A stretch of 38,507 nucleotides of DNA, taken from Bacteroidales bacterium. GTDB lineage: Bacteria > Bacteroidota > Bacteroidia > Bacteroidales > F082. Both the position numbers and the translations under genes were made by a program. The stretch lies in the NCBI GenBank assembly GCA_017530365.1, contig JAFXMK010000032.1:1-38507 (forward strand), given 5' to 3'. Of this stretch, positions 1 through 13,184 are shown piece after piece. Every line of letters starts with the position of its first letter. The stretch's first letter is position 1. The notes beneath the pieces are model-generated. The model worked only from the letters and a program-made list of their open reading frames with translations, had not been told where the DNA came from and searched no databases.

Positions 1-345
1 TGGAAGAAACGCAAGGAGGGCAAGGCCGTCTCCACGACCGACACCGGCACCGGTGCGCTTCCGGGCTCCCTGGAGTACATCCTGGCCAACGTGCCCTTCA
101 CCAACAAGGAGGTCCGCAAGATCAACGCCACCATGGCCCGTGTCAATGCCTCGACAGTCGCGCGTGAGGAAATGCAGGCCAAGGCCTCCCGCAACGGAAA
201 CACCTTCGACGAGCAGGTAGTCCTCGACGCCATCTGGCTGCTCTATCATCCTGACCAGAATGCCAACGCCGCCTGGATCGCCGGTCCCGACGGAAAGACT
301 GACTACGGCTGGCGCCTTCAACAGAAGGTGCTGAACCTCAACTAA
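1..345 (+). CDS. Partial phage protein, 5' end outside window
   Basis: The frame is open from the first base, so the gene starts to the left of the window; the 115 visible residues end at a TAA. The visible part begins with a basic stretch (WKKRKEGK), the pattern that follows the single membrane helix in several downstream proteins, so I infer that an N-terminal anchor lies just outside. The rest is soluble, helix-rich, and ends in YGWRLQQKVLNLN. A GTG at 91 could serve as a start but would discard residues that read as normal coding sequence. It is the first gene of the rightward virion block and is separated from the next by 38 bases of A/C-rich leader. I do not recognise the family. Confidence 0.7.
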   Translation, partial: WKKRKEGKAVSTTDTGTGALPGSLEYILANVPFTNKEVRKINATMARVNASTVAREEMQAKASRNGNTFDEQVVLDAIWLLYHPDQNANAAWIAGPDGKTDYGWRLQQKVLNLN

Positions 346-383
346 CCAACAAACCGAAAACTAACCAAAAAAACCTTAAACAA

Positions 384-974
384 ATGTTTGACACATTAAG
401 AGAAGCCCTCAGGGCTCAAGTAACATTCAACTTTGTCGGCGACAACAACAACGCCAAGAAGCTGTGCCTTCTTCCCGGCCTCTACAGCGCCATGAAATTC
501 GTCCAGGACGGCACCAGCAAGGCCGCCACGCTGTCCTTCAGCGACCCGACTGACCTTAACAACGCCGGCTACGCCTGTGACCAGGTTGCCGACGACTACA
601 ACGCCAACGACCCCGGACAATACGTCCAAGTGAACTCCGTGGGCCGCACGAAATACCGCGACTTCCTCAACGCCGTCCAACGTGTCGGCCTCCGTGTTTC
701 GCAGATCGTCATCCAGGCAGCCAACGCCGCCAGCCAGTCGTTCTACAACACCGAGATTGAGATCGCCAAGACAGCCTTGGGCGCCAAGGGTGGCACCGAC
801 TTCATCACCCTGCAGCAGTACGTCAACGTGAACGCCTACGACCGCAGCAAGATCACCATCGATCTTTCCGGCCAGACTTTGGATCTCACTCCGGAGGTGT
901 TCATGGCCATCACCGTTCCTGCACAGGCCCAATTCTCCATCCAGTTCACCTTCGAGCCAAGCGCAGCCGCATGA
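384..974 (+). CDS. Candidate major virion (capsid) protein
   Basis: The product has 196 residues with no signal peptide or membrane helix, the only soluble protein of this size among membrane-anchored neighbours. Composition is rich in Asn, Ala, Gln, Thr and Val, with alternating hydrophobic patterns that suggest beta strands; the C-terminus (FSIQFTFEPSAAA) reads like a closing strand. Its Met start follows an A-rich leader, the usual translation signal in this phylum. It stands at the head of the membrane-protein run and is followed by a strong hairpin, as expected for a heavily expressed structural gene. I infer a capsid or other abundant virion protein, possibly jelly-roll. It is short for a double jelly-roll capsid protein, so a single jelly-roll or minor protein is equally possible. 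I cannot assign a family by sight. Confidence 0.5.
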   Translation: MFDTLREALRAQVTFNFVGDNNNAKKLCLLPGLYSAMKFVQDGTSKAATLSFSDPTDLNNAGYACDQVADDYNANDPGQYVQVNSVGRTKYRDFLNAVQRVGLRVSQIVIQAANAASQSFYNTEIEIAKTALGAKGGTDFITLQQYVNVNAYDRSKITIDLSGQTLDLTPEVFMAITVPAQAQFSIQFTFEPSAAA

Positions 975-1009
975 TCTGAAACGGGCAAGGATTTTTTCAT
1001 CTTAGATGG

Positions 1010-1042
1010 CACGGCGAGCGGGTTTTAATCTCGCCCGCCGTG
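1010..1042 (+). promoter_or_regulatory. Strong intergenic RNA hairpin
   Basis: Thirteen bases at 1010-1022 pair with 1030-1042 with one A-C mismatch and one G-T wobble, around a 7-base loop (ttttaat). The stem is GC-rich. No T-run follows, so it is not a standard intrinsic terminator. Its place, 36 bases after the stop of the candidate capsid gene and before the membrane-protein genes, suggests an mRNA-stabilising or partial-termination element that sets capsid message apart from the rest. Confidence 0.6.
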
Positions 1043-1076
1043 TCTGCTAAAAAGACCAACCAAAAACCAAGAAACC

Positions 1077-1451
1077 ATGAACGAAATCTTCAATCCAGCA
1101 CCGACAGAACCCGTCGCCATCAAAAGCGGAGCCTTCGGCCGCAAGCGCTACAGCAACTATAACGGCAGCGAGGTGGGTCCAACCATGGACGACGGCAGCT
1201 TCTACAGCAACACCGCCGGTCTTGGCCAAAACACATCCGGCTCCGGTGCGTTCAGCTGGGGCTATGTGGGCGACTGGCTCAGTTCCGCCGCCAACGTGGT
1301 CTCAAGCATCTGGGGCACGTCCGACAAATATGTGGCCAACGCCTACCAAACCATGTATAACCAGGAGCGCAAAAACGCCAACATCCTCATCTTCATCGTG
1401 GTGGCGCTCGTGCTGCTGGCTTTCGCATTCCTCATTCTCAAAAAGAAATAA
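1077..1451 (+). CDS. Tail-anchored small virion membrane protein
   Basis: The 124-residue product has a Gly/Ser/Asn-rich soluble part and one C-terminal membrane helix at about residues 100-121, ending in LILKKK. The polybasic tail predicts that the C-terminus stays inside the membrane and the body faces outward. The N-terminal region carries SGAFGRKRYSNY at about residues 17-28, a motif repeated in the next gene's product. The stop and the next start are 3 bases apart, so translation is probably coupled. I infer a virion membrane protein; nothing suggests catalysis. A second frame open across 1222-1458 is a shadow. Confidence 0.65.
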   Translation: MNEIFNPAPTEPVAIKSGAFGRKRYSNYNGSEVGPTMDDGSFYSNTAGLGQNTSGSGAFSWGYVGDWLSSAANVVSSIWGTSDKYVANAYQTMYNQERKNANILIFIVVALVLLAFAFLILKKK

Positions 1452-1454
1452 GCC

Positions 1455-2303
1455 ATGACAAACTTCCCATATTCAGGCGCCTATTCGCGCCGCCGTTTCA
1501 GCAACTACAGCGCTGCATCCAAACAGTCCGCCGTCGATCCCGGAGGCTACACCCTGAGCGTCACATCTGGCAATCCGTCGATGGGGGAGGTGAAGGTGGA
1601 CAAACTCACCGATCCTTCGCCGCTGTCGTCGGAATCGGCTTCCCTGGAGGCCGCTTCGGGCCGCAAAGGATCTGGAGACAGATTCCGCGCCAGGGCAACC
1701 GCTTACAAAGGATACCGCTTTGTGCGCTGGGACACCAACATCGACGGGGTGGGCAATACAACGCAGAACCCCGTTTCATTCGGTCTCACCAAGGATACCT
1801 GGCTGGTTGCCCGTTTCGAGAAAGCCGGCGACGACGCCCAGAAGGTGTTCACCGCCAACATCCGGTGGGACGGCAAGATGGGCCGCGTAAACGGCAACGG
1901 CCTTGTCCTTGACGACAAGAGCCGCGCCGGCAGCGGAACCATCAGCGCCACCAACGGCAACTCCGTCACCCTCACGGCCACGCCGCTCGACGGCTACCGC
2001 TTCGTAGCATGGCACGGCGCTCCTGTTGACGGAAAGACCTCAAAGGAAATCACTTTCCAGATGAACGGGAACTACGCCATCAGGGCTGAGTTCGCCGCCG
2101 TCGATCCCGGTACCGGATCCGGATCGGGAAACGTCGTCGGTGGAGGTGGGGGCGGATCATCCTCAAGCAACGGCGCCGTGGAAGCTACCGTCGTTTCCAA
2201 GCCCAAGGAATCCGGCATCATGGCCTTCCTCAAGAAATGGTGGTGGGCCGTGCTGATCGCTGCCTTCGTCATCTACAAAGACAAGGAAGGAGGCTTGAAA
2301 TGA
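1455..2303 (+). CDS. Tail-anchored protein with two B-repeat-like domains
   Basis: The 282-residue product has an N-terminal motif SGAYSRRRFSNY shared with the preceding protein, then two copies of a beta domain with the pattern GYRFVRW / GYRFVAW followed by a strand ending in ARFE / AEFA. This matches bacterial InlB-B-repeat-like (Flg_new-type) modules found in surface proteins. A Gly/Ser hinge follows, then one C-terminal membrane helix (about 261-276) and a charged end. I infer a spike or surface-display protein fixed in the phage membrane, possibly involved in host contact. Its stop overlaps the next start as ATGA. The repeat family is inferred by pattern and not by search. Confidence 0.65.
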   Translation: MTNFPYSGAYSRRRFSNYSAASKQSAVDPGGYTLSVTSGNPSMGEVKVDKLTDPSPLSSESASLEAASGRKGSGDRFRARATAYKGYRFVRWDTNIDGVGNTTQNPVSFGLTKDTWLVARFEKAGDDAQKVFTANIRWDGKMGRVNGNGLVLDDKSRAGSGTISATNGNSVTLTATPLDGYRFVAWHGAPVDGKTSKEITFQMNGNYAIRAEFAAVDPGTGSGSGNVVGGGGGGSSSSNGAVEATVVSKPKESGIMAFLKKWWWAVLIAAFVIYKDKEGGLK

Positions 2304-2545
2304 TCGGCCAGTCGGGATGCTTCGGCAATACATACGAGCCGCCCATCGACGACATCCATGAGGCGGGCGCCGCCGTGACCGACATCATGGAGGGAATGAC
2401 GGTGGGGAATCCGGAGCCATGCGCTCCGGATCCTTCCGCCGATCTGGCCGCCAGGCTGCTCTGCGTGACGATGCGCCGCGTCCGTCTGCTCACCTGGGCA
2501 GTGCTGGCCGTCGTCGCTTACCTTGTAATTAAGGAAATTGACTAA
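2300..2545 (+). CDS. Small tail-anchored membrane protein
   Basis: I choose the ATG at 2300 because it overlaps the previous stop as ATGA, giving 81 residues; an upstream start at 2237 would read back through the preceding gene. The body is acidic, with Pro/Asp/Glu and three Cys residues before the helix region, and a single membrane helix lies at about residues 62-78 with a very short end (KEID). It is the third of five consecutive genes whose products carry a C-terminal anchor. The family is not recognised; I infer a small virion membrane protein. Confidence 0.6.
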   Translation: MIGQSGCFGNTYEPPIDDIHEAGAAVTDIMEGMTVGNPEPCAPDPSADLAARLLCVTMRRVRLLTWAVLAVVAYLVIKEID

Positions 2546-2563
2546 CAACCAAACCTCAACAAA

Positions 2564-3004
2564 ATGGCACAACTTACAGGAGAACCCTTGAAATTCGCCG
2601 CGGAACACATGACGAACTGCCGCAAGCACGGTTACAAGAAATACCGCGTGCTCGTTTCTGCCGACTCAAACACGGATGGCAAAACACTGTGCACCTATCT
2701 GCAGCAGGTTTACAAACCTTCCGGCATTGCCGATTACAGCGGCGGGTACCGCGATTTCTCCTTGGTGTTCGACACCGTGAGCCGTCGCGACGAGGTTGTG
2801 AACGACATCAATGATGCCGTCACCGCATACCGCATGGCCCACCCTGGCAGTGCGCCGACCAACGGCGGATCCTCCACGGTTTATACCAGTGAGGAGCCGG
2901 TGGATGTGCAAACAAACAAAACCGGTTGGACCACCTACCTGATCATCGGGGCCGCTGCCGTGGCCATCATCATGCTGCTATGGAACCGCAAGAAGAAAAA
3001 ATAA
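2564..3004 (+). CDS. Tail-anchored virion protein, alpha/beta body
   Basis: The 146-residue product has an alpha/beta soluble domain of about 95 residues, a Gly/Ser/Thr linker, and a C-terminal membrane helix (about 120-139) ending NRKKKK. The start follows a G-poor A/C-rich leader. The 3' end overlaps the next gene by 25 bases, so the two are probably translated together. The anchor type matches the neighbouring tail-anchored proteins. I do not recognise the soluble fold and assign no activity; it is probably a structural membrane protein of the virion. Confidence 0.62.
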   Translation: MAQLTGEPLKFAAEHMTNCRKHGYKKYRVLVSADSNTDGKTLCTYLQQVYKPSGIADYSGGYRDFSLVFDTVSRRDEVVNDINDAVTAYRMAHPGSAPTNGGSSTVYTSEEPVDVQTNKTGWTTYLIIGAAAVAIIMLLWNRKKKK

Positions 3005-3705
3005 GGACCAAGGACCGTGAAGACCTGGGACCGGTGCTGTCGCGTGCCGACCACGATCTCAACGTCATCGAGGTGAACAAGGCTGCATTCTACAAGCTTC
3101 CCCCGATGATGCAGGAGTTCATTCTGTGCCACGAGGTAGTGCACCTCCGGAACAACGAGTGGGACGAGGCGGAGACCAACCGCATCGCCTCCCGGATCTT
3201 CCTGGACCGCGCCGCCAACGCCGACGACCTGGAGAAACGGAAGGAATTCCTTTCCTACCTCGACGGATCGGACAGCCAGTACAGCAACTTCTTTGCTGAA
3301 GCGATGTCGATCATCGGCGGTGCCTGGAGCCTTGGAACGTCTATCTACGGGGTCATCAAGCAGCGCAACGCCGGCTGGTACAGCTGGGACGATGCCGCAC
3401 AGCGCTCCAACATCAAGGCGATGCTTGGCCAGGCCTTCGAGCAGAGCCGCCGCAGCTCCTCCAGGAGCGCCGGCGATTTCCTTTGGGACCAGCTCCGAAA
3501 CTACACCAACAAGGACAGTTCCCTTGACGAGTTCCTGGATCGGTCGGGCAACGCCTGGGTGAAAGCAGTGATCGCCAAATACGAGAACGCCTACGACTTC
3601 AAGCTGGATGAGGTGACCCCCATCGACATCACCGCATTCCCGTTGCTGGTCGTCGCCATCGGCGCTCTGATCGGCCTGGCTGTTTACAAAACCATCAAAA
3701 AATAA
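2980..3705 (+). CDS. Membrane-anchored HExxH metalloprotease
   Basis: The 241-residue product carries the zinc-protease motif CHEVVHL at residues 50-56 (His51, Glu52, His55), followed by NNEWDEAETNRIA, where an acidic residue at 62-65 could be the third zinc ligand. A long helical region follows, then one C-terminal membrane helix (about 218-236) ending YKTIKK. The ATG at 2980 is chosen because it lies just inside the previous gene's end and directly precedes a natural N-terminus; the frame is open further upstream to 2926 but only as shadow. I infer that it cleaves virion or cell-surface proteins from the phage membrane, or matures a capsid component. The residues support a zinc peptidase; the substrate is unknown. 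Confidence 0.65.
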   Translation: MEPQEEKIRTKDREDLGPVLSRADHDLNVIEVNKAAFYKLPPMMQEFILCHEVVHLRNNEWDEAETNRIASRIFLDRAANADDLEKRKEFLSYLDGSDSQYSNFFAEAMSIIGGAWSLGTSIYGVIKQRNAGWYSWDDAAQRSNIKAMLGQAFEQSRRSSSRSAGDFLWDQLRNYTNKDSSLDEFLDRSGNAWVKAVIAKYENAYDFKLDEVTPIDITAFPLLVVAIGALIGLAVYKTIKK

Positions 3706-3709
3706 GACA

Positions 3710-4210
3710 ATGAGCAAAACTAAAATAACCAAGACAATCGACTACCTGAGCGACCCAAAGAAGGGCATCACTGCAGCCGTGCTGCTGGTGCTCGCCATTG
3801 TAGCCGTCGCTTTCGTGTGGCGGAAGGTCAGAGGCCTTTGGAACGGATCTTACTCTTCCGGATCATCCGCTGTAACGATCCTCGGCGATGCCGCTATAGA
3901 GACGGGCACGGGAACATTCATCACAAGTTCCTTGGATTTCGCACATCTATGGCTGCGCCTTTGGGAAGCGACTGTTTGGACTGGCACTAACGAACAGGAG
4001 ATTTATGATGTGCTTGGGATGCTGAACAGCCAGGCTGATTACATGAAACTATGTAATGTATGGGCGCAGCACTGGGCGTCTGCAGGCTGGCTTGCCCGAA
4101 TGGATGTCCGTTCGACACTTCCGGCCACGCTGAAATCAGAACTCAGTTCCAGCGAGCTTTCCAAGGCACGCAATATCCTTTTGTCCAAGGGCATAACACC
4201 AGATTTCTAA
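3710..4210 (+). CDS. N-anchored protein with annexin-like GTxE segment
   Basis: The 166-residue product has a basic N-terminus, a membrane helix at about residues 20-38, a basic flank (WRKVRGLW), a Gly/Ser linker and a helical domain. The domain opens with WTGTNEQEIYDVL and closes with LKSELSSSELSKARNIL. This spacing of a GT-x-E motif followed by helices resembles small annexin-like helical modules seen in Bacteroidota proteins; that link is by eye only. It is the first of the run in which the anchor moves from the C-terminus to the N-terminus, and starts 4 bases after the protease gene. The base composition is somewhat less GC-rich than its neighbours. It is probably a virion membrane protein. 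Confidence 0.6.
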   Translation: MSKTKITKTIDYLSDPKKGITAAVLLVLAIVAVAFVWRKVRGLWNGSYSSGSSAVTILGDAAIETGTGTFITSSLDFAHLWLRLWEATVWTGTNEQEIYDVLGMLNSQADYMKLCNVWAQHWASAGWLARMDVRSTLPATLKSELSSSELSKARNILLSKGITPDF

Positions 4211-4228
4211 CCATTTAAAACATAGACC

Positions 4229-4558
4229 ATGAAACCGAAAACCAAAAAAATCCTCATCATCACCTTTGCCTTGGCCCTGGTGGCCGTCATCATCTGGGTT
4301 GTCACCAGAAAGGCCAAGAAGGGAACCGCTGAAGGCTACATCGACCGTATCAACACCACGGCGGCCAACCGCCGCGCCATCAAGGGCTATCTTGAGCGTG
4401 CCCGGATGGAACAGGACATCGACCAGAACGCCACCGACAACGGTGTCAGCTACGAGAAGTCACTCGCACTGTCGGCAGCCTATTATCTGGTGCAGGACGG
4501 AACCATCCCGCTGATGACCTGGTACGACTGGAAGAACCAAGTCAAAGCCATGGAATAA
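4229..4558 (+). CDS. N-anchored small virion membrane protein
   Basis: The 109-residue product begins MKPKTKKIL, then has one membrane helix (about residues 8-25) and a basic flank (RKAKK), followed by a helical soluble domain. The first 19 bases of the gene are identical to those of the muralytic gene at 5914, so the same anchor has been reused on two unrelated bodies. The soluble part is acidic-to-neutral with Tyr and Trp near the end. No catalytic motif is visible. I infer a structural membrane protein of the virion. Confidence 0.6.
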   Translation: MKPKTKKILIITFALALVAVIIWVVTRKAKKGTAEGYIDRINTTAANRRAIKGYLERARMEQDIDQNATDNGVSYEKSLALSAAYYLVQDGTIPLMTWYDWKNQVKAME

Positions 4559-4570
4559 GGAGGCGTCGCC

Positions 4571-4720
4571 ATGAACGAGCAGATAGTGCAATTACTGGAG
4601 AACTACAAGGACGGTGTGCCCGTAAAGATAGAGCGTTCAACGCTGGTCACGCTCGCGCTGACCGAATTGGCGGTCATCGTGCTGGGCGCCCTCGTTGTGA
4701 AGATCATCAAGAAACTCTAA
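4571..4720 (+). CDS. 49-residue single-helix membrane protein
   Basis: This short gene reads from ATG at 4571 to TAA at 4720 and fills the gap between two well-supported genes with no wasted space (12 bases on each side). The product has an amphipathic N-terminal segment, one membrane helix at about residues 24-43 and a basic end (KIIKKL). It fits the pattern of the block: one helix, polybasic inner side. Small proteins of this type are common in membrane-containing phages and as holins. With only one helix and a charged N-terminus, a pinholin-like role is possible but unproven. Confidence 0.55.
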   Translation: MNEQIVQLLENYKDGVPVKIERSTLVTLALTELAVIVLGALVVKIIKKL

Positions 4721-4732
4721 AACCGGAAAACC

Positions 4733-4963
4733 ATGACCAAGAAGAGAACAAAGCCGGCCAAGGCCTCAGCCGTCACCAAGAAGGCCGTGGCCATCTACGA
4801 CGAGCAGAAGGCCACCTATCGGAAGCTGCTGAAGACCAAGGTCCGCCAGGGAAAGAAAGTGACCACCGCGGCCAAGGAAGCCTCGAAGATCTATAAGGAA
4901 ATGTACGGCGCCACGCCCACGACACGCTGGAAACGTGCCTTGCGCGAGGCCAAAAACGCCTGA
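4733..4963 (+). CDS. Small highly basic protein, possible DNA-binding
   Basis: The 76-residue product is rich in Lys and Arg and Ala, begins MTKKRTKPAKAS, and has no membrane helix. The body is predicted helical with a repeated KxxK pattern and ends in RWKRALREAKNA. It lies 2 bases before the peptidase gene. A basic soluble protein among virion membrane proteins suggests a genome-condensing or internal virion protein, similar in style to the product at 6557. The family is not recognised. Confidence 0.55.
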   Translation: MTKKRTKPAKASAVTKKAVAIYDEQKATYRKLLKTKVRQGKKVTTAAKEASKIYKEMYGATPTTRWKRALREAKNA

Positions 4964-4965
4964 AG

Positions 4966-5631
4966 ATGGACAAATCGACCAAAAGAACCCTGATCATATC
5001 CTCCTCGGCGGTGGGCGCCGTGGCGCTCTCCGTCGTCGCCTGGTGGCTGTGGATCACATTCCGAGGCCGTAAAAAAAGCACAACCTACACCATGAACCAG
5101 AACCAGACCAACACATCGACCGGATCCACCACGCCCTCAATAGCCGGAAAGACCGCCTCCGGACTTGTCGCCTATTGCCGTGCCCAATTGGGCCGTCCCT
5201 ACTGGTATGGCACTTTCGGCCAGCGCGGATCGGAGTCGCTATACCAGTACAAGAAGAAACAGTATCCGGCCTATTACACCGCCTCGAACTACGTTTCACA
5301 GTACGGTCAGAAGGTCCACGACTGTGTTGGCCTGATCAAGGGTTATTTCTGGTGTTCCGGCCCCGATGACACAAACCCGACCTATCTGGGCAACGGCTTC
5401 CCGGACGTCAGCGCCAACGGGTTGCTCTCCTACTCACAGGAGAAAGGCCTGGTAGCCGTCGATTTTCCCGACATCCCGGGTGTCGCCGTCTTCATGCCTG
5501 GTCATGTAGGCGTGTATATCGGCAACGGACAGGTGATAGAGGCGATGAACCACAGCCGGGGAGTTGTGCAGACTTCGCTCAAAGGACGCCCGTGGGTTTC
5601 ATGGGCAAAAATACCTGGACTAAAATACTGA
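4966..5631 (+). CDS. Membrane-anchored NlpC/P60-type peptidoglycan peptidase
   Basis: The 221-residue product has a basic N-terminus, a membrane helix at about residues 8-31, a Thr/Asn/Ser linker (40-60) and an NlpC/P60-like domain (65-221). The domain shows the expected Cys in HDCVGLIKG (Cys120) and His in MPGHVGVYIGNG (His180), with a polar candidate at Asn195/His196. Enzymes of this type cut peptide cross-links of peptidoglycan, usually next to D-Glu. A tether in the virion membrane would let it open the wall during genome entry; a lysis role at exit is the alternative. It is grouped with a coiled-coil membrane protein and a muralytic protein downstream, in a nearly gapless run. Confidence 0.8.
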   Translation: MDKSTKRTLIISSSAVGAVALSVVAWWLWITFRGRKKSTTYTMNQNQTNTSTGSTTPSIAGKTASGLVAYCRAQLGRPYWYGTFGQRGSESLYQYKKKQYPAYYTASNYVSQYGQKVHDCVGLIKGYFWCSGPDDTNPTYLGNGFPDVSANGLLSYSQEKGLVAVDFPDIPGVAVFMPGHVGVYIGNGQVIEAMNHSRGVVQTSLKGRPWVSWAKIPGLKY

Positions 5632-5635
5632 AGCC

Positions 5636-5917
5636 ATGGATATCTATCACATTCTGGAACTGCTCCTGGTACCCATCACCAGCGTCGTAACCTGGCTCGC
5701 CACCCGCAACAAGCGCCGAAACGACGCCATAGGCGAGCTGCAGACCACGATCGACATGCTGGTGAAGAAGAACGGATCCATCTATCAGGATCTAATCAAC
5801 ACAAGGAAAGAATTGTCGGAAGCTTGGGTGCAGATTGAGATTTTGAAAACCAACACAGATAAACTGCTTGTCGAAAACGCCGAGCTGAAGAAACTCATAG
5901 AGGGCAAAAAGAAATGA
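5636..5917 (+). CDS. Membrane-anchored coiled-coil protein
   Basis: The 93-residue product has a hydrophobic N-terminal segment (about residues 5-22), a basic turn (RNKRRND), then a continuous heptad-patterned helix to the end (LQTTIDMLVKK through LVENAELKKLI). The layout resembles phage Rz-type inner-membrane spanins or small membrane-tethered oligomerisation proteins. Its 3' end overlaps the next start by 4 bases (ATGA). With a lipoprotein spanin-like gene downstream, one reading is an i-spanin; the other is a virion-internal membrane protein that trimerises. Confidence 0.6.
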   Translation: MDIYHILELLLVPITSVVTWLATRNKRRNDAIGELQTTIDMLVKKNGSIYQDLINTRKELSEAWVQIEILKTNTDKLLVENAELKKLIEGKKK

Positions 5918-6528
5918 AACCGAAAACCAAAAGGATCCTTTCCGTCGCCGGCATGGCGGCCGTTATCGTCGCCATTGCCGTCGCCGGTTACCTGCTGTGG
6001 CGCAAGCGTCGCAACGGTGGCATCCTGGTTGTCGGCGGCACCAACACCCAAACCAACGGCAACATGAACACCACACCTAACACCACCGGATCATCAGGAA
6101 CCCATTTCAACGACACCAGCCTTCCACTGGGCTACCGCAACAACAACCCGCTGAACATCCTCTACGGGTCGAGCCTGTGGAAAGGGAAGGTGATTCCAAA
6201 CACCGACACGAGCACTCCGCGCAAGGAACAGTTCATCTCGATGGCCTACGGCTACCGCGCCGCACTGTACCTGTTCCGCAAGCACATCCGCGGAGGCTAC
6301 GACACCCTGGCCCGCCTGGTGAACCGCTGGGGAACCGGCGCCACCAGCGATGCAGAGACCAACTATGTCCGATATGTCTCGTCGAAGACGGGCATTTCTC
6401 CTGGTACCAGACTCAACCCCGACGACATGGACACCCTTTGCCGCGTCGCCTACGCAATGGCCGGCTTCGAGAACGGCAAGCTTCCCTCATCGATGGAAGA
6501 GATCTACCAAGGGTGGACGCTACTTTAA
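5914..6528 (+). CDS. Membrane-anchored P5-type muralytic virion protein
   Basis: The 204-residue product starts with the anchor MKPKTKRIL and a membrane helix (about 10-29), a Gly/Asn/Thr linker, then a domain from about residue 70: LPLGYRNNNPLNI, followed by WKGKVIPN, FISMAYGYRAA and a Trp/Gly pattern. This matches the family annotated as 'structural protein P5' in Bacteroidota phages, a lysozyme-like domain in virions that digests peptidoglycan. The recognition is by motif and moderately secure. The ATG overlaps the preceding stop by 4 bases. With the NlpC/P60 protein it gives the phage a pair of tethered wall-cutting enzymes with different bond specificities. Confidence 0.72.
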   Translation: MKPKTKRILSVAGMAAVIVAIAVAGYLLWRKRRNGGILVVGGTNTQTNGNMNTTPNTTGSSGTHFNDTSLPLGYRNNNPLNILYGSSLWKGKVIPNTDTSTPRKEQFISMAYGYRAALYLFRKHIRGGYDTLARLVNRWGTGATSDAETNYVRYVSSKTGISPGTRLNPDDMDTLCRVAYAMAGFENGKLPSSMEEIYQGWTLL

Positions 6529-6556
6529 TATTGTATAATCTCAAAAATCAGAAAAT

Positions 6557-6790
6557 ATGGCAACGAAGAAAACATCACAGAAAAAGACCGCCAAGCGGCA
6601 CGTCACAAAAAAAGAGTACGATTCTATCACAGACAGCTACTACCGCCTGAAGAAGAAGGTGTATAAGCTTGCCGAAAACGACAAGCTCTACGATGGCGCA
6701 CGAAGCGAAATGAAGTCCTTTGTCCGCGCCCTTGAAAAAGCCCGTTCTGGCGTCAACTGGGCGAAAGCCACCAACTATACCGCCGGTTGA
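6557..6790 (+). CDS. Small basic protein, possibly nucleoid-like
   Basis: The 77-residue product opens with a run of Lys, Thr and Ser (MATKKTSQKKTAKRH), then forms a helical body with alternating charged and aromatic residues. There is no signal peptide or membrane helix. The leader is AT-rich and ends with an A-rich stretch before ATG. It resembles the basic protein at 4733 in composition but not obviously in sequence. It may be a packaged DNA-binding protein or a small regulator; neither can be shown. Confidence 0.5.
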   Translation: MATKKTSQKKTAKRHVTKKEYDSITDSYYRLKKKVYKLAENDKLYDGARSEMKSFVRALEKARSGVNWAKATNYTAG

Positions 6791-6811
6791 TTGTGTCACC
6801 GTACTAAGACA

Positions 6812-7291
6812 ATGAAAACGAGCATCAAAACATTCATCATAGTCTTCGCCATGGCCATGCTTCCCGCCTGTAGTGTCCAGAAAAGGGCAGATAGGCACAT
6901 CCGGCGTGCTGTGGAACTGTGTCCGGACCTGGTGCAGATGAAAGCGCACCCGATCGACACGTTCCTCAGCGTGCCAGGATACACCGATATCGCCAGGGTA
7001 CCCATCGACAAGGTCTTTGAAGACGATGCCATTTTCGTCGGTACCGAGCACGGCATGATCACGCTGTCCATGGACAAGACCGACAGCACCTTGACCGTGG
7101 CTTTTTCCGCTGCGCCTTCAGAGATCCGCTATCGGGACACGGTAAACTACAGCCAGGTTGTCCTGGCTAAGGAGCAGAAACAGGCCAAAGAATGGTCGTT
7201 CAAGAACTGGCTGGCCACGTTGGTATGCGGCCTGTGCATAGGCGCGGCATTTATCCTGTGGCTGTTACGAGAAAAACAAGAAAACAAATAA
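6812..7291 (+). CDS. Unimolecular-spanin-like lipoprotein
   Basis: The ATG at 6812 gives 159 residues with a lipoprotein signal: MKTSIKTFIIVFAMAMLPAC, so Cys20 is lipidated. A periplasmic domain of about 110 residues follows, then one membrane helix near residues 136-152 (NWLATLVCGLCIGAAF) and a basic end (REKQENK). A lipid anchor at one end and a membrane helix at the other is the layout of u-spanins, which fuse inner and outer membranes in the last step of lysis (known from phage T1). An upstream ATG at 6791 gives a poor N-terminus. The alternative is a plain structural lipoprotein. It follows the muralytic genes, fitting a lysis role. Confidence 0.6.
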   Translation: MKTSIKTFIIVFAMAMLPACSVQKRADRHIRRAVELCPDLVQMKAHPIDTFLSVPGYTDIARVPIDKVFEDDAIFVGTEHGMITLSMDKTDSTLTVAFSAAPSEIRYRDTVNYSQVVLAKEQKQAKEWSFKNWLATLVCGLCIGAAFILWLLREKQENK

Positions 7292-7302
7292 AACCCAAAG
7301 AC

Positions 7303-7575
7303 ATGTACTTCATCAATTATTCAGAATTGGCCGGCTTGACAAATGCAGGCTTCAATAAAACCGAGATAAAAGTTTCCGTCAGCGGAACCACCAAAACCAC
7401 GACTGTTTACGGCGGCAAAGCCAACGTCACGGATCCAGCCACGGCGGACAGCCGCACCGACTGGGAAATCATGAGAAGCGTCATCGTCGAAGACGGAGAC
7501 ACCACCAACGTCACCACGGCTTGGAGTAGGGGATCCTGGAACGACCGTGAAAGTCTAATCTACAAATACCTTTGA
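7303..7575 (+). CDS. Small hypothetical virion-region protein
   Basis: The 90-residue product from ATG 7303 is Thr/Ser-rich, beta-prone and soluble, with tandem KTTTVYGG and WSRGSWNDRES segments. An upstream start at 7192 overlaps the previous gene and is rejected. It lies 3 bases before the receptor-binding protein gene, so it may be an adaptor or chaperone for that protein, but the family is not recognised. Confidence 0.55.
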   Translation: MYFINYSELAGLTNAGFNKTEIKVSVSGTTKTTTVYGGKANVTDPATADSRTDWEIMRSVIVEDGDTTNVTTAWSRGSWNDRESLIYKYL

Positions 7576-7578
7576 GCC

Positions 7579-10527
7579 ATGACCGGAATAATGTTTGACA
7601 AAATGATGAGGAAACTCCGCCAGGGAGGCAATGAGATCACGACCGAGGACCAGAGCAATCTCACAAACGAGCAGCGGATCCAGGCCCTGGCCAACATCAG
7701 CGACCAGACCGCCAACGCCAACACCGGAAAAATGGGTTACAAGGTGCTCCTTCCAGGAAAGAGCTTCGCCGAACAGGTGACGGAGGCGAACACCATTTAC
7801 GAGATCAGAGACGTGTTTGATTTAAATGAAACAACTATTTCAACACCCATTTTACTACCAGAAGGTTGCACGTTGAAGTTCAACGGAGGAATGCTGAAGA
7901 ATTGCACTCTTGTCGGTCAGAACTCGACTATAGAAGCTGACGGAAAGATATTTGACAATGTTTCCGTAACAGGCTCATGGGCTTGCGTTGGAAAGATAGC
8001 ATGGTGGGCTATTGGATCTAAATTCAACACATCCACCAACTTGCCTATTGACAATGATGAGACGACTGCAATTCAGCTTGCATTGGACTCTTCTTTCAAG
8101 GAATTGGTGTTTGATCCAGTACCCTATTGCATTACAAGCACATTGATACTTAGAAACGCAAAGAACCTAAGGCTTAGTGGCGTGCCAAACACAACAATTG
8201 CATCTTCTGGTAACACAAAAAAGGCGAATGCAACATATATTTATACAAGAAGCAATATAGATGTGTTGAATGTTAGTGTTTACATCTCAGACCCGTTACA
8301 GAAGATAGTCATTGAAGGGGGTGCCTTTGACGCAAGTCTTTGCTCCACATTCACAGGTAACCTGATACATGTTAGCACTGGGAATGGACAAAAGGTATGG
8401 GGGATGGAAATCAACACAACACTATTTGGAAAGAACAACGGTGTAGGAACAATACCTGGAGGATATGGCATAATGATTGGCGACACCACAGGGACAAGTG
8501 CAGCTGGATATGCAACCATGATAAGGATAAATTCGCATTTCCAATATTTGAATACTGCCGTTTACATACTGTCTAACTCATCTACTGGTGGATGGGTTAC
8601 TGATGTGGTGGTTGACGGAGAGTGTTCAAGTTGCGCAAAGGCTGTTTATACCAATGCAGGCAATACCGATGTAAGACTTTCGATACAAACAGCAGCATTC
8701 TTTGACATAGATACCAAAGATACCAATGCTGCAATCACTTTTGATGGGACAAGAAGTTCACAATTGGCGTTTTCGGTTTCATCGTGGGTATGGGATTTGG
8801 GAGCTAATCCTAGCGGTACTACAAGATATTCTAATGCAAAATCTCTGGAGATTCTTGGAAATGCAAGGGTTGAGATATATGGGAGTTTTGCAGTCCAAGC
8901 GGCTCTTCAAGGAAATTCTTTTATAAATAAAATAATTGGTTCCGTAAACAATATATACGGAAGAGTCGGTAATTTGCCAAGAAGCATTCAATTCCCATAT
9001 AAGTTACAGAATTTTGTCCCAAATGCTTTGAATGACATATTGCTTGGATGCGACTTGACTGGTCATGTGACTACTACTGCAAAGCTCATGCGATATAATA
9101 ACGGTGAGTATTCCGAGGATGCCAACTTGGAAACTCCTAATACAGTAGCCAATTTATATCGTGACAATTCAGATATTTATTACCTTAGAGTAGGAAGTGG
9201 ACCATCTATGGGTGAAAAAGATTATTTCCAACTCGACTTGGAGTTTGATAGCAATTCATACCATCGGATAGCTTCATTTTTCCTGTTCTTCAGGAAATAT
9301 TCGGCAACAGAAACAATTAACAACCAGCCGAATAAAGTTGAGGCATACATTAATCCAGACAATGAAAATTACAAGATGTATGCAAGTAGTCCGGTGAATT
9401 ATTCTACTGAAGGCTTTTTTGGTGATTATATTGAATTTTCCACCGATTTATATTCTACAACGACTAAAAAGATTGCAATTAAGATATTTGCACCGAATGC
9501 ATCTCAAGTTAATCTATATAGATTATCCGCTTTTGCTTTCTTTAATAATACTAGTAGTAATGTTTACAATCTTCATAATCCTTACATATCAAGATGTGGT
9601 GGTGACATATATGGACCATTGAATATATATGGTACTGTAAATTTCGGAGATAATGCAAATGTAGGATTTTTGCCTTTTGGGAAAAGTGTTGTCATTTCAA
9701 ACAATTTGACATCGTTTGTTTCAAACATTAACTTGCTTCCAAATATTACTAAGGCAAGAGCCTTGCGTTTTACTCCTCCTACTACAAGCGGAAGGTTCCA
9801 GTACTCATATCTTGTCGCTATAGGAGGTTCAAAAAATAAAGCGACTTATTATGCATGGTCTGGGCTTTACATGATTATGTTCATGGGTGATGCAACAGGG
9901 ACTGACAATACAAATGTCAAGTTTATCGTCAGGAAAATCTACAGCAATTTCAATGCTTCTTTTGATTTGTATTACAAGGCATCGACAAATAATGTGATAT
10001 TTGATGTGAAAGTTGTAAACAATGATTCAATAACAAACACATTCGTATCCGTACTTAATCCAGACAAGTATCTTTCTGTTGCTAATGACAAGCAGTCGGG
10101 AAGCACACAAAGACCGTCATCTGATTCAAACTACATACTTATTGATGTCAAAGGAGACACTGCAAGCAGGCCTAATCAGAACTACATAGAGACTGGATTC
10201 CAGTATTTCGACACAGACTTGGGGAAGGTAATTGTCAATAATGGCTCTACATGGGTAAATCCAGACGGCTCACCTCTTGAAACCCACACCATTACAAACA
10301 CCCTCGCCTCTGTAACCAACAGCAACCCTGCCACTGAGATTGATGGCAACAAGACCTACATGGTGACCCTCACGCCTGGAATGGACTATGTTATCCAGTC
10401 CGTGACGGTGACCATGGGCGGCACAGACGTCACTTCGTTTGTCTATAACCCGACGACCCATGTGATCTATATCGCTTCCGTTACCGGAGACATCGTCATC
10501 ACAGCCACTGCAGGAACACCCAATTAG
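7579..10527 (+). CDS. Receptor-binding (tailspike/fibre-like) protein
   Basis: The 982-residue product has an N-terminal attachment region with the pattern NTGKMGYKVL, NTIYEIRDVFDL and LPEGCTLKFNGG, which I know from receptor-binding proteins of Bacteroides phages. A beta-helix-like middle follows (about 80-700), then a segment with ASRP and a YFDTDLGKVIVNN pattern common at fibre ends, and an Ig-like C-terminal domain (TLTPGMDYVIQSVTVTMGG). The gene's ends are GC-rich like the other phage genes, while its centre (about 7,810-10,250) is clearly AT-rich, so the binding core was probably acquired by exchange. It likely recognises a surface glycan or capsule. No depolymerase active site can be shown. 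Confidence 0.75.
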   Translation: MTGIMFDKMMRKLRQGGNEITTEDQSNLTNEQRIQALANISDQTANANTGKMGYKVLLPGKSFAEQVTEANTIYEIRDVFDLNETTISTPILLPEGCTLKFNGGMLKNCTLVGQNSTIEADGKIFDNVSVTGSWACVGKIAWWAIGSKFNTSTNLPIDNDETTAIQLALDSSFKELVFDPVPYCITSTLILRNAKNLRLSGVPNTTIASSGNTKKANATYIYTRSNIDVLNVSVYISDPLQKIVIEGGAFDASLCSTFTGNLIHVSTGNGQKVWGMEINTTLFGKNNGVGTIPGGYGIMIGDTTGTSAAGYATMIRINSHFQYLNTAVYILSNSSTGGWVTDVVVDGECSSCAKAVYTNAGNTDVRLSIQTAAFFDIDTKDTNAAITFDGTRSSQLAFSVSSWVWDLGANPSGTTRYSNAKSLEILGNARVEIYGSFAVQAALQGNSFINKIIGSVNNIYGRVGNLPRSIQFPYKLQNFVPNALNDILLGCDLTGHVTTTAKLMRYNNGEYSEDANLETPNTVANLYRDNSDIYYLRVGSGPSMGEKDYFQLDLEFDSNSYHRIASFFLFFRKYSATETINNQPNKVEAYINPDNENYKMYASSPVNYSTEGFFGDYIEFSTDLYSTTTKKIAIKIFAPNASQVNLYRLSAFAFFNNTSSNVYNLHNPYISRCGGDIYGPLNIYGTVNFGDNANVGFLPFGKSVVISNNLTSFVSNINLLPNITKARALRFTPPTTSGRFQYSYLVAIGGSKNKATYYAWSGLYMIMFMGDATGTDNTNVKFIVRKIYSNFNASFDLYYKASTNNVIFDVKVVNNDSITNTFVSVLNPDKYLSVANDKQSGSTQRPSSDSNYILIDVKGDTASRPNQNYIETGFQYFDTDLGKVIVNNGSTWVNPDGSPLETHTITNTLASVTNSNPATEIDGNKTYMVTLTPGMDYVIQSVTVTMGGTDVTSFVYNPTTHVIYIASVTGDIVITATAGTPN

Positions 10528-10544
10528 AAATTGGGTGCTTTTTT
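10517..10544 (+). terminator. Intrinsic terminator of the phage late operon
   Basis: The 8-bp stem cacccaat/attgggtg (10517-10524 with 10530-10537) is followed by CTTTTTT. The stop codon of the receptor-binding gene (10525-10527) and, on the other strand, the stop of the integrase gene (10524-10526) both lie inside the hairpin, so one element ends two convergent genes. Confidence 0.85.
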
Positions 10545-11657
10545 CGATATCGTATCGACCAAAAGAGGATCAGCATGATTGGCGTAACGGGTGGTCATCG
10601 AAAGGTCGTGGTGATCGGCATGCTGCATCACCGTCAGTGGGTCGATGCCCGCCTTGATCATTTCATTGATGCCGGTGTCTCGGAGACTGTAAAGCTGCAT
10701 TTCCGGAGGCAATCCCAAGGCTTCACGCATACTGAGCCAGTCCTTATCGAAACGAGAATGGTTCATGGCCTTTTTGCCAGGCGCATAGTCTTTGCTTGAG
10801 ATGAGATAATAATCGGGTGAAGCATTTACGATCCATCCGGCTACAAGTTCCTCAAGTTCCGGGTTCATTGTTGCCACTCGTGGATAGTGTGTCTTTGAGA
10901 TCTCTGACCGGATGTAGATGTAGTGTTCTTTAAGGAACACGTCGCTGACCTTCAGGCCGCGGATCTCCTTCGGACGGATAAGGGAGGAATATACAAGTTG
11001 GCTCACAATCAGCAGGCCAGGATTTTGAGCCTTACAGTACGCGGCAATTTTCTTGCGGTAAACGGCCGGTATCGGCACGCGTTGTTTCTCGGACTCACGC
11101 TTTGTTTTGATTCCCGCAAAAGGGTTTTCCTTGCAGTAACACTTGCCAATCGCCCAAGAGAACAAGGCTCTCGCCGCCTTCAGCTGGTTGTTCCAGGACC
11201 GTCCAGTCAGGCCACGATCTTTGAAACAGTGGTCGAGGTATCTAACTGCCAACACCTTATTAAATAAATAAGCCTGACAGTTTGGGACATTTTCATCCAA
11301 CCACTTTTCGAAGCCTCTGCAAAACGACCGGTATGACCGCATCGTGTCCGGACGAAGTTCCGCTGACTTTTCATCCAGGTAGTCTTTTATCACTATTGAT
11401 AGGGGAGTGTAGAGCCTGGTATTGTTGAACTCACCGATCGGGTTCCAACCGCCTGCCAGTTTGGCGTTGATTGTGCATACAATGCGGTTACAGTGTTCCT
11501 TGAAATCCGATATCCTGGTGTAATGTCTTCGCAGGGTGTTAAGGTGTTGCCGGTACCGCTTCATCTTTCCGGTGGCCGGATCGATAACCTGGTACTCAAG
11601 GTACCAGCCATGACTGTTCTTTTTTATGAGAGCAGGAAGGTAGTCAGTTGCAAGCAT
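10524..11657 (-). CDS. Tyrosine recombinase (phage integrase)
   Basis: The 377-residue product has an N-terminal arm-binding and core-binding region (about 1-170) and a catalytic domain with the tyrosine-recombinase residues: Arg228 (LIRPKEIRGL), Lys255, Arg326 (YSLRDTG), His349 and the nucleophile Tyr358 (TTRYANH). The usual His three residues before the second Arg is replaced by Tyr323. I choose Met at 11657, directly after an A-rich leader; an upstream Met at 11702 adds 15 basic residues and is less likely. It is the only leftward gene of the phage, next to the end repeats and tRNA-like fragment, and is transcribed away from the chromosome boundary. It would catalyse integration and, with helper proteins, excision. 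Confidence 0.92.
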   Translation of the reverse strand: MLATDYLPALIKKNSHGWYLEYQVIDPATGKMKRYRQHLNTLRRHYTRISDFKEHCNRIVCTINAKLAGGWNPIGEFNNTRLYTPLSIVIKDYLDEKSAELRPDTMRSYRSFCRGFEKWLDENVPNCQAYLFNKVLAVRYLDHCFKDRGLTGRSWNNQLKAARALFSWAIGKCYCKENPFAGIKTKRESEKQRVPIPAVYRKKIAAYCKAQNPGLLIVSQLVYSSLIRPKEIRGLKVSDVFLKEHYIYIRSEISKTHYPRVATMNPELEELVAGWIVNASPDYYLISSKDYAPGKKAMNHSRFDKDWLSMREALGLPPEMQLYSLRDTGINEMIKAGIDPLTVMQHADHHDLSMTTRYANHADPLLVDTISKKAPNF

Positions 11658-11712
11658 TTTTTTTCTTTTCGCAATCCGGATCCGGGCGAAAAGAATTGCC
11701 AATCTCTAAAAA

Positions 11713-11757
11713 TTTTGTGCAGTTTTTTGTGCAGTTTTTTGTGCAGTTTTTGTGCAG
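11713..11757. repeat. Four tandem GTGCAG-T repeats near the attachment end
   Basis: GTGCAG occurs at 11717, 11729, 11741 and 11752, each separated by a T-run of five or six, giving a 12/12/11-base period. The block lies between the integrase start and the tRNA-like end. Such regularly spaced direct repeats are typical of arm-type binding sites of an integrase; this assignment is inference. Confidence 0.7.
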
Positions 11758-11767
11758 ATTAAACCAG

Positions 11768-11793: not shown

Positions 11794-11802
11794 CAGCGCA
11801 TG

Positions 11803-11830
11803 TGACCCGGCTGGGGCTCGAACCCAGGAT
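11803..11830 (-). other. 3' tRNA fragment / candidate attachment core
   Basis: On the minus strand this reads as the T-arm (CTGGG-TTCGAGC-CCCAG) and the 3' acceptor strand (CCGGGTC then A) of a tRNA. The 5' partner GACCCGG is not found at the right distance upstream; the sequence there is a protein-coding frame. So this is a fragment and not a functional tRNA. It marks the end of the prophage and is the probable crossover site of the integrase. The isotype cannot be told. Confidence 0.55.
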
Positions 11831-13184
11831 GCACGCCCTCGAAGGCTTGTTCGAATCCCGTCCAATGGTCTTCGCCCTCAAACAGGGCTTTTTCCAAGTC
11901 CTTGAACCCCATGGGGTTGTTACGGTCACGGGAATACACTTCAAAGCATCGGATGATATGGCACTTCTGAAGGTATTCGTCTTTGAGTCGGTCGCCGGTT
12001 TGTTTTTGGAGGGTCTAGATTTGGGTTTGAAGGTCGCTCTGTTCCTGTTGTTGCTGCTCGTTGCGTTTCTTGAGTTCCAACAGGTTGGCGTTGATTTCGG
12101 CTTCGATGCGTTTCTTTTTCAAGGCATTGAAGACCAAACCAGTGATGATGGCCAGGGCGATCATTAAGACGACGATGAGCACGATGATGAGCCGTTGTCG
12201 CGAGAGCATCTGACGGTTGTGCTGGTTGGCTTGGGTCTCGAAGTCGTATTTCTTTTGGATCTCGAGCACGGAGCTCTGGGTTTGGTCGGAGAGGATGTCG
12301 GGGGCGACTTCTTCGTGTTTTTTCTCCAGGTCGAACGCGGTGGCGTAATCACCGTTGGCCAGGGCATCTTTGATCAGGAAGGCATAGACGGCGGCCATGG
12401 TCTCGGGGCGGCATTCCGTCAGTTCCATGGCGTTGAGCATCGCAGTTTTATAGTATTCGAGGGAGTCGCGTTCGTCCAAGGCAAGATACACTTTGGCGAG
12501 GTTCATCAGGGCGATGGGACGGCGCTTGACATCCACCAAAGGCAAGGTTTTCCGAAGACAGTCTTTGGCCGCGTCGAAGTTGTCGGTAAGCTGGTAAGCC
12601 ACGGAGTAGTTGTTCCAAACGGAGGCTTCCGTGACGGGGTCATGGGAGGTCTGGGCGAGCTGTAAGGCTTGTTCCAGATAGATCAAGGCGCTGTCATACG
12701 CATCGATGACGATGTTCATCATGGCTACGGCGTTGAGGCACTTGGCCTTGCGGGAGAGGCTGTCGCCCCAAAGCTCGGCAGCCGCTTTGTAGTTGACGAT
12801 GGCCTCGTCTTCATGGCCGCTGTTGTTGAGGAGGTCACCTATGTAATATTGGGCGAAGGCGGCGCTGACCGAATCGCCCGTCAAGCGACCATAGCGGTCG
12901 GCCTCTTGGTAACAGTTCATGGCGGCCTCGTATTCCTTTTTGGCTTGGCGTACCCGACCGCTGTAGAGGGCGGCTGGAGCGGCGTTCCGGTAATCCTTGG
13001 CGTGAAGGAAATAGTCGTACGCCTCGAAGATCTGGTCGTCGTTGCTGATGTCCTCGTCGGCACGGTAACGGTCGCGCACTTCGTTCACCACGGCCTCCAT
13101 ACGCTCCGTCTTGGCCTTCGAGCGGAAAGTGCAGGAGGGGAGCAGGAGGAGGACGATGCCGAAGATAAACAATGACCTAACCAT
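11820..13184 (-). pseudogene. TPR membrane regulator, cut at 3' end and with internal stop
   Basis: From Met at 13184 the product has a lipoprotein signal (Cys at LLLLPSC), about seven TPR-like helical repeats, a membrane helix (about 317-338 of the visible frame) and a Gln-rich coiled coil. This is the layout of Bacteroidota membrane-bound regulators that end in a LuxR-type HTH, as the gene at 15979 does. A TAG stops the frame at 12015, but the same frame continues for about 65 codons with recognisable family sequence (MGFKDLEKALF, EQAFEGVHPGF) until it runs into the tRNA-like phage end near 11820. The HTH is missing. I infer that phage integration removed the 3' end and that the stop arose afterwards or is a base error. 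An upstream Met at 13226 is less likely. Confidence 0.75.

Follow-up and report, generated by a model that had tools for sequence, protein, structure and literature searches.

Which kind of virus has left a dense run of small membrane-protein genes at the left end of contig JAFXMK010000032.1 of a Bacteroidales bacterium? This contig (38,507 nucleotides, here called the window; contig C30 of the 50-contig genome G000) had been described in an earlier note, from its letters alone, as carrying at 1-7291 part of a temperate phage with an internal lipid membrane, of PRD1-, corticovirus- or FLiP-like type. We find that the window holds one part of a prophage that continues on another contig of the same assembly. 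We assign a probability of about 0.72 to the reading that it belongs to a new family of temperate, tailless, membrane-containing, probably double-stranded DNA (dsDNA) phages with a single-jelly-roll coat; the tailless, membrane-containing and temperate character taken alone is very probable.

The first 141 bases of the window repeat, letter for letter and in the same orientation, the last 141 of contig C6 (whose terminal 12,915 bases are locus L003); this resembles an overlap of the assembly graph. The join is supported by locus L018 (CAMJRR010000002.1, uncultured Bacteroidales bacterium), because it has the genes of both sides in one unbroken contig and in the same order (61-72% identity over three proteins; ATPase 72%). 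L018 is also the nearest named relative of the phage.

The packaging ATPase and the gene before it

A FtsK/HerA-type packaging ATPase had been anticipated to the left of base 1, and one is present on C6, in a run of genes that leads to the candidate major capsid protein (MCP) of the window (lengths in amino acids, aa; E, expectation value):

L003, between the PBECR1 gene and the ATPase: proteins of 201 aa, 104 aa and 215 aa, in that order (called genes)
L003, ATG at 11590, to 12246: A32-like packaging ATPase (Pox_A32, E 2.5e-7, 30.9 bits against a gathering cut-off of 22.8; slice searched one codon longer than the ATG-start gene)
L003, after the ATPase: proteins of 57 aa and 40 aa, then the start of window gene 1 (called genes)
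Window 384-974, + strand: candidate MCP, 196 aa, predicted single jelly roll (family profile, AlphaFold models)

Three family profiles, built from 16 rows for the 215 aa protein and from 20 rows each for the ATPase and the capsid protein, were compared with 83 proteins of PM2, PRD1, P23-77, FLiP and SNJ1 (some proteins of those viruses were left out) by pairwise scores without database statistics. For the 215 aa family, PM2 gp-h ranks first (78.8%, 75 columns) and PRD1 P10 second (40.2%, 48 columns), the third protein scoring 9.8%; P23-77 VP11 and SNJ1 VP5 give no match. In the portion of PMC9502842 available, gp-h and P10 are called homologous, P10 is a membrane-vesicle assembly factor and its gene lies upstream of the ATPase, the position that the gp-h/P10-like gene, directly before the ATPase, has in the element. 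This family is detected in 19 of 22 elements (in one weakly), with no match in L024, L025 and L026 when the profile is run against six-frame translations.

The four best of the 83 proteins for the ATPase family are the annotated packaging ATPases, namely those of P23-77 (97.4%, 167 columns, which is not decisive alone because a P-loop control reaches 87.8%), PM2 (P9, 69.3%, 30 columns), PRD1 (P9, 42.6%, 53 columns) and SNJ1 (2.2%, level with an unrelated protein). IN93 scores 97.2%. The presence of a packaging ATPase points to a dsDNA genome; the single-stranded DNA (ssDNA) phage FLiP has none, according to the part of PMC5894146 consulted.

The gene order of the element resembles that of PM2 (corticovirus; Vinavirales, Varidnaviria), in which gp-h is followed by the packaging ATPase, a small protein, the MCP, small membrane proteins and the spike. 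Vinavirales often occur as prophages, although their gut hosts are mostly Alphaproteobacteria and Verrucomicrobia (both from the same portion of PMC9502842), and the PM2 genome is 10 kb, as against 22-27 kb in this family. PRD1 (tectivirus) shares the P10-like factor, the packaging ATPase (third in the ranking), wall enzymes and many small proteins; it differs in that no DNA polymerase or terminal protein was matched among the element proteins scanned, and in that the element is integrated and has an integrase.

The ATPase also brings in the single-jelly-roll membrane viruses (Helvetiavirae/Singelaviria, P23-77-like). Membership in this group would overlap with the reading given above except for kinship. 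P23-77 (Matshushitaviridae) provides the best and longest ATPase match, the order ATPase, small protein, ~140 aa protein and small MCP is similar, a single jelly roll is predicted here, and IN93 has an annotated integrase and repressor. However, P23-77 and SNJ1 have two annotated MCPs where we found one candidate (a second was sought only by eye in gene lists), the capsid family has no sequence link to VP16, VP17, PB7 or PB2 (which leaves room for structural homology), the upstream protein matches gp-h/P10 instead of VP11 or VP5, and the SNJ1 ATPase is barely matched. We regard this kinship as unlikely.

The candidate coat protein

The product of 384-974, singled out in the earlier note as a soluble candidate capsid protein, retains that role: it has no membrane segment, is conserved and models as a jelly roll with moderate confidence. 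Its family ranges from 178 to 343 aa. The profile gives one match per element in 21 elements, 20 of these matches being in the profile itself (that of L089 is not), and five distant members were recovered as new matches (E 8.7e-21 to 9.7e-5). Three members (L023:5061-6089, L025:6556-7410 and L026:10694-11557) begin with a signal-peptide-like helix, which is unexpected for a shell protein.

Sequence comparison does not connect this family to known coats. The best Pfam match (E 0.028) and the best PHROGs match (PHROG 33171, 'virion structural protein', E 0.038) are not significant, the profile finds nothing useful among PDB sequences (best E 0.074), and nothing above 1.6% among the 83 reference proteins (PM2 P2, 0.8%), so that neither the coat proteins of PRD1, PM2 and FLiP nor those of the P23-77-like viruses are matched. 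The candidate has no match in phage or plasmid records, and neither it nor the ATPase of the element has one among 50,697 phage records. The candidate coat thus appears, from these comparisons, both smaller than and unrelated in sequence to the coats of the compared membrane phages.

AlphaFold models of two members (~20% identical) are jelly rolls of moderate confidence, and their structural neighbours, among the matches listed, are mostly viral coat proteins. One fold search matched a single barrel-sized part of PRD1 P3 (255-384), STIV (184-314) and FLiP (160-286); in another, the match to PR772 spans 26-247. No Helvetiavirae coat protein is among the fold matches listed, which excludes nothing. 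With moderate confidence, the models suggest one jelly roll and not a double one.

A double-jelly-roll shell like that of PM2 or FLiP would require either that two rolls are packed very compactly into the 196 aa protein, or that this protein is a minor, penton-like component and the true shell protein was missed. The PM2-like gp-h and ATPase, the order of gp-h/P10, ATPase, small proteins and MCP shared by PM2 and PRD1, and the presence of FLiP and PRD1 coats among the fold neighbours all speak for such a shell. The smallest known double-jelly-roll MCP has 239 aa (PMC9719478, in the part available), so the length of the window protein, and of members down to 178-200 aa, counts against it, as does the match to one barrel-sized part only of PRD1 P3, STIV and FLiP (the PR772 match being the longer one). 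No other soluble protein above 200 aa is kept downstream of the ATPase across the elements, as judged by eye and not systematically. A double-jelly-roll shell is in our view improbable.

Lipid-containing phages of Bacteroidetes are already represented by FLiP and phiCjT23 (Finnlakeviridae), with a compact jelly-roll coat and, in phiCjT23, a temperate life (PMC9719478, same part). Their genomes are circular ssDNA of 7.6-9.2 kb, their coat is unrelated in sequence, and phiCjT23-like prophages integrate by a dif/Xer-type route. Finnlakeviridae are characterized by a small ssDNA genome, a rolling-circle Rep and the lack of a packaging ATPase, whereas here an ATPase is present and the element has 22.2 kb.

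A broader proposal, which we hold tentatively and at somewhat less than even odds, is that the family is a new high-rank lineage of dsDNA membrane phages, combining a PM2/PRD1-type assembly module with one single-jelly-roll shell protein of its own origin and spread as Bacteroidales prophages. If true, it would be a natural intermediate between viruses with single and viruses with double jelly rolls, or else a case in which a jelly roll was recruited as shell protein for a third time, independently. A single-jelly-roll coat that works with a PM2/PRD1-type factor and ATPase would bear on the origin of double-jelly-roll viruses, the issue behind the recent split of Singelaviria from Varidnaviria (PMC12714852, in the excerpt available).

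Late genes and tail-like labels

The remaining late genes of the window, all on the + strand, are as follows:

1-345, +: C-terminal part of a ~130 aa membrane protein (N-terminal helix on C6, L003:12712-12915; full-length relatives with helix in L018, L047, L049, L053)
1077-1451, +: 124 aa protein, one C-terminal membrane helix (score 3.46), presumed virion membrane protein (homologues in L018, L019, L047, L049, L053)
1455-2303, +: 282 aa protein with InlB-type repeats (PF18998, E 2.7e-17) and a weak helix at the C-terminus, candidate for a surface or spike protein (homologues in L018, L047, L049, L053)
2300-2545, +: 81 aa protein, one C-terminal membrane helix (helix scan, relatives' gene lists)
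2564-3004, +: 146 aa protein, one C-terminal membrane helix (helix scan, relatives' gene lists)
3034-3705, +: membrane-anchored HExxH protein, candidate metallopeptidase (motif; sub-threshold YgjP/M78 Pfam matches; start uncertain, with a start at 2977 used in the Pfam and PHROGs searches)
3710-4210, +: 166 aa protein, N-terminal membrane helix (helix scan, relatives' gene lists)
4229-4558, +: 109 aa protein, N-terminal membrane helix (helix scan, relatives' gene lists)
4571-4720, +: 49 aa protein, one membrane helix (helix scan, relatives' gene lists)
4733-4963, +: 76 aa soluble protein (homologues in L018, L045, L049, L053)
4966-5631, +: membrane-tethered NlpC/P60 wall enzyme, N-terminal helix (PF00877, E 4.7e-5, 23.8 bits against a cut-off of 23)
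5636-5917, +: 93 aa membrane protein that may be an inner spanin (weak match to a PHROG spanin, E 0.026)
5914-6528, +: membrane-tethered endolysin-type protein, N-terminal helix (PHROG 873, E 1.6e-23)
6557-6790, +: 77 aa protein (homologue in L045)
6791-7291 (ATG at 6812), +: possible outer spanin, lipoprotein-like and with a second helix (weak match to a PHROG spanin, E 0.14; homologues in L018, L048, L049, L053)
7303-7575, +: 90 aa protein adjoining the receptor-binding candidate (homologues in L018, L047, L049, L052, L054, L055)
7579-10527, +: 982 aa protein, receptor-binding candidate (match near the C-terminus to PHROG 20787, 'virion structural protein', E 3.6e-4)

A simple gene caller finds 16 genes in 1-7291, and not the 17 of the earlier note, whose count of 12 short single-helix proteins is nevertheless reproduced, one of the 12 being weak. 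By a Kyte-Doolittle scan (17 residues, cut-off 1.7), ten of the 16 have one membrane segment and fewer than 300 aa; gene 1 adds a helix (residue 6) that the overlapping contig C6 encodes, and the C-terminal segment of 1455-2303 scores 1.61, visible only below the standard cut-off. The product of 6812-7291 has two segments, and those of 384-974, 4733-4963 and 6557-6790 have none. By the same scan, four of 35 sampled host genes encode short single-helix proteins. In the late regions of 14 related loci (regions chosen by us, limit 360 aa) the count is 101 of 155 genes. An A32-like ATPase in the place of the terminase and many small late membrane proteins are, on gene content, what is expected of tailless membrane phages in general. 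The two wall-cutting enzymes are tethered as the earlier note had stated, each behind an N-terminal helix; the enzyme type varies, with Peptidase_M15 at the equal position in L053. The HExxH motif of the 3034-3705 family is present in 17 of 22 elements (16 by motif scan and L089 by eye), mostly with a C-terminal helix (in L031 without a helix), and the protein is possibly a virion or assembly peptidase. The last 218 aa of the 982 aa protein, queried alone against the relatives, gave no match.

Inoviruses have coats of small single-helix proteins, and their assembly ATPase, Zot/pI, belongs to the same broad superfamily. The many short single-helix proteins together with a P-loop ATPase would therefore also suit a filamentous phage, as would the signal-like helices on three capsid candidates and one weak Phage_Coat_B match (E 0.033). 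However, the ATPase has no membrane helix and matches A32, the elements have 22-27 kb, the tethered wall enzymes, together with weak spanin matches, point to lysis, and the conserved core protein lacks a helix in most members. We consider a filamentous phage very unlikely.

A PHROGs scan of 33 proteins of the element (the 44 aa open reading frame at L003:5395-5529 left out) found no portal or tail module, which extends to the left part on C6 the lack of tail and portal genes seen in the earlier note. Head, packaging, tail or terminase names at E <= 1e-3 are confined to the repressor-like and 57 aa proteins, the ATPase, both wall enzymes and the C-terminus of the 982 aa protein.

Several results weigh against a tailless membrane phage with a single-jelly-roll coat. 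Four P-loop controls scored 87.8, 4.8, 0.1 and 7.3% with the ATPase profile (two further 'controls', L056_665 and L028_9700, are ATPase search matches themselves), and this profile finds generic P-loops only among PDB sequences. The capsid models have low TM-scores to solved structures and were built from overlapping (shared) alignments. By label, 4966-5631 matches a 'minor tail protein' (PHROG 329, E 8.2e-7), and 5914-6528 a 'tape measure' (2276, E 5.6e-10) and a 'head protein' (992, E 1.1e-5). A 'terminase small subunit' is matched both by the 57 aa protein (E 7.6e-4) and by the repressor-like one (E 2.6e-4), and a 'terminase large subunit' (PHROG 2666, E 7.9e-10) by the ATPase; PHROG 873, 'endolysin', is itself filed under head and packaging. 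We reject the tail and head names as evidence of a tail, because the matches lie inside larger profiles that often have wall enzymes fused in. The small-subunit names are read as helix-turn-helix matches, because other DNA-binding families match alongside, and the large-subunit name is probably a loose one given to A32-like ATPases. Among the 33 proteins scanned, the portal, tail and head genes of a tailed phage appear to be lacking.

If the element is a tailless membrane phage with this coat, the integrase and repressor, whose genes and ends are seen in the DNA, would establish lysogeny. Upon induction, the integrase would excise the prophage and the late genes would be expressed. The gp-h/P10-like factor would help to form a membrane vesicle studded with single-helix proteins, around which the 196 aa protein would build an icosahedral shell, and the ATPase would pump DNA into the vesicle or shell. 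The membrane-tethered wall enzymes may open the wall for entry, exit or both, and the spanin-like proteins would complete lysis. Attachment may be served at the surface by the proteins of 282 aa and 982 aa.

Integration site, relatives and left part

The right end of the element carries two features:

10524-11657 (ATG start), - strand: tyrosine integrase (PF00589, E 2.7e-18, slightly longer slice searched; homologues at the same end of related prophages)
11802-11829, no strand: right attachment (att) repeat, 3' end of tRNA-Lys(UUU) (28 bp, identical to L003:2425-2452)

Counted from one repeat to the other, the element spans ~22,179 bases (10,491 on C6 and 11,688 on C30). A complete tRNA-Lys(UUU) lies at C45:192-265, immediately behind a second copy of the phage end (95% identity). 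In genome G427 (L072), the DNA next to tRNA-Lys corresponds to the left flank on C6. At the level of the DNA, these ends show a ~22.2 kb prophage integrated at the 3' end of tRNA-Lys(UUU). In four of four related prophages tested, the att repeats overlap a tRNA gene: tRNA-Thr (repeat 29 bp, span ~27.1 kb), tRNA-Val (37 bp, ~23.1 kb), tRNA-Met (27 bp, ~23.5 kb) and tRNA-Ser (17 bp, ~25.8 kb). The G420 element has its left end beyond its contig. The integrase at the right end, on which the earlier note had based a temperate life, and the paired att repeats in tRNA genes show that life in the genome sequences.

The distribution was surveyed in samples whose queries and thresholds differ. The ATPase search is positive in 9 of 295 genomes of the order sample, each of a different family (G027 among them, later dropped), and in 9 of 149 genomes of the same family; the capsid-candidate search is positive in 4 of 198 genomes. 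These counts include the own genome, which is the only one found in the phylum sample (1 of 395; profile A10, E 1e-10). IMG/VR gave nothing with single proteins or two close rows as query, and five contigs with alignment queries, including L090, which ends in the ATPase. The profile survey covered 26 loci, translated in six frames and corresponding to 23 elements, of which three are split into two halves. The capsid family is detected in 20 of 22 ATPase-selected elements, own included, in which the ATPase is present by design; in all 20 its gene is found downstream of, and in the same direction as, that of the ATPase. The two others are L022, a 3 kb contig with the ATPase and the upstream gene only, and L028 (G027), which we dropped as a family member (weak ATPase-profile matches, no capsid match, no membrane-protein run). 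L024 came from the capsid search and has no ATPase within the stretch read; counts out of 22 for other features leave L028 out and take L024 in. G379 (L041) has a second, short ATPase match, and L025:1339-2753 holds three tandem 154 aa open reading frames of equal length with the same two-helix pattern.

A defective or satellite element, stripped of its tail genes and dependent on the capsid of a helper, would likewise lack a portal or tail module among the 33 proteins scanned. Such an element is hard to reconcile with the late gene order, equal in L018 and genus relatives, with a core present in other host families, with the ATPase and capsid family occurring together in 20 elements, and with precise att ends; we consider it very unlikely.

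Judged by these searches, the tailless membrane phage family appears to be present in several host families of one order and unmatched in the phage records searched. We did not find such a family described in the literature, including the available parts of PMC5894146, PMC9502842, PMC12714852, PMC8812541, PMC8682789 and PMC9719478. Tailless membrane phages are known as a kind; in the same texts we found no described example that combines a PM2/PRD1-type factor and ATPase, a single-jelly-roll coat and a Bacteroidales-type host. Tailless phages of the human gut are reported to be a minor part and to come mostly from other hosts (PMC9502842, as excerpted). With no phage-record match for the ATPase or capsid, and none significant for the capsid in PHROGs, homology-based surveys may therefore miss such phages.

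The left part of the element, on C6, comprises the following genes:

L003, leftmost in the gene order, leftward: two small genes (called genes)
L003:3454-3783, - strand: helix-turn-helix repressor-like protein (PF01381, E 5.2e-6)
L003, after the repressor-like gene: 77 aa protein, then 217 aa protein (called genes)
L003:5559-5954: DUF5618 protein (E 3.8e-29)
L003:5968-8748: 926 aa replication protein, primase-helicase-like (weak DUF5906 and DnaG zinc-ribbon matches; PHROG 28855, E 5.2e-28)
L003:9368-9847, early region: PBECR1 nuclease domain protein (E 3.3e-20; homologues in several relatives)

The protein in the replication slot varies among members (e.g. 926, 777, 763, 739 and 735 aa), while the late core is constant.

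The DNA to the right of window 11829 is not the natural neighbour of tRNA-Lys and continues a host gene that extends in G427 and G440. This interrupted gene (G427: C32) shares GAACCCAGGA with the att repeat (window 11820-11840). Either the phage is also integrated at a secondary site or two strains are mixed. The start of the contig with the other half of the interrupted host locus (C21:1-281) is AT-rich and of other origin, with no match when compared with the left end of the phage. The phage right end at C45:1-219 is one GTGCAGTTTTTT-type unit shorter than window 11700-11760, and at least two versions of the phage end are therefore present in the assembly.

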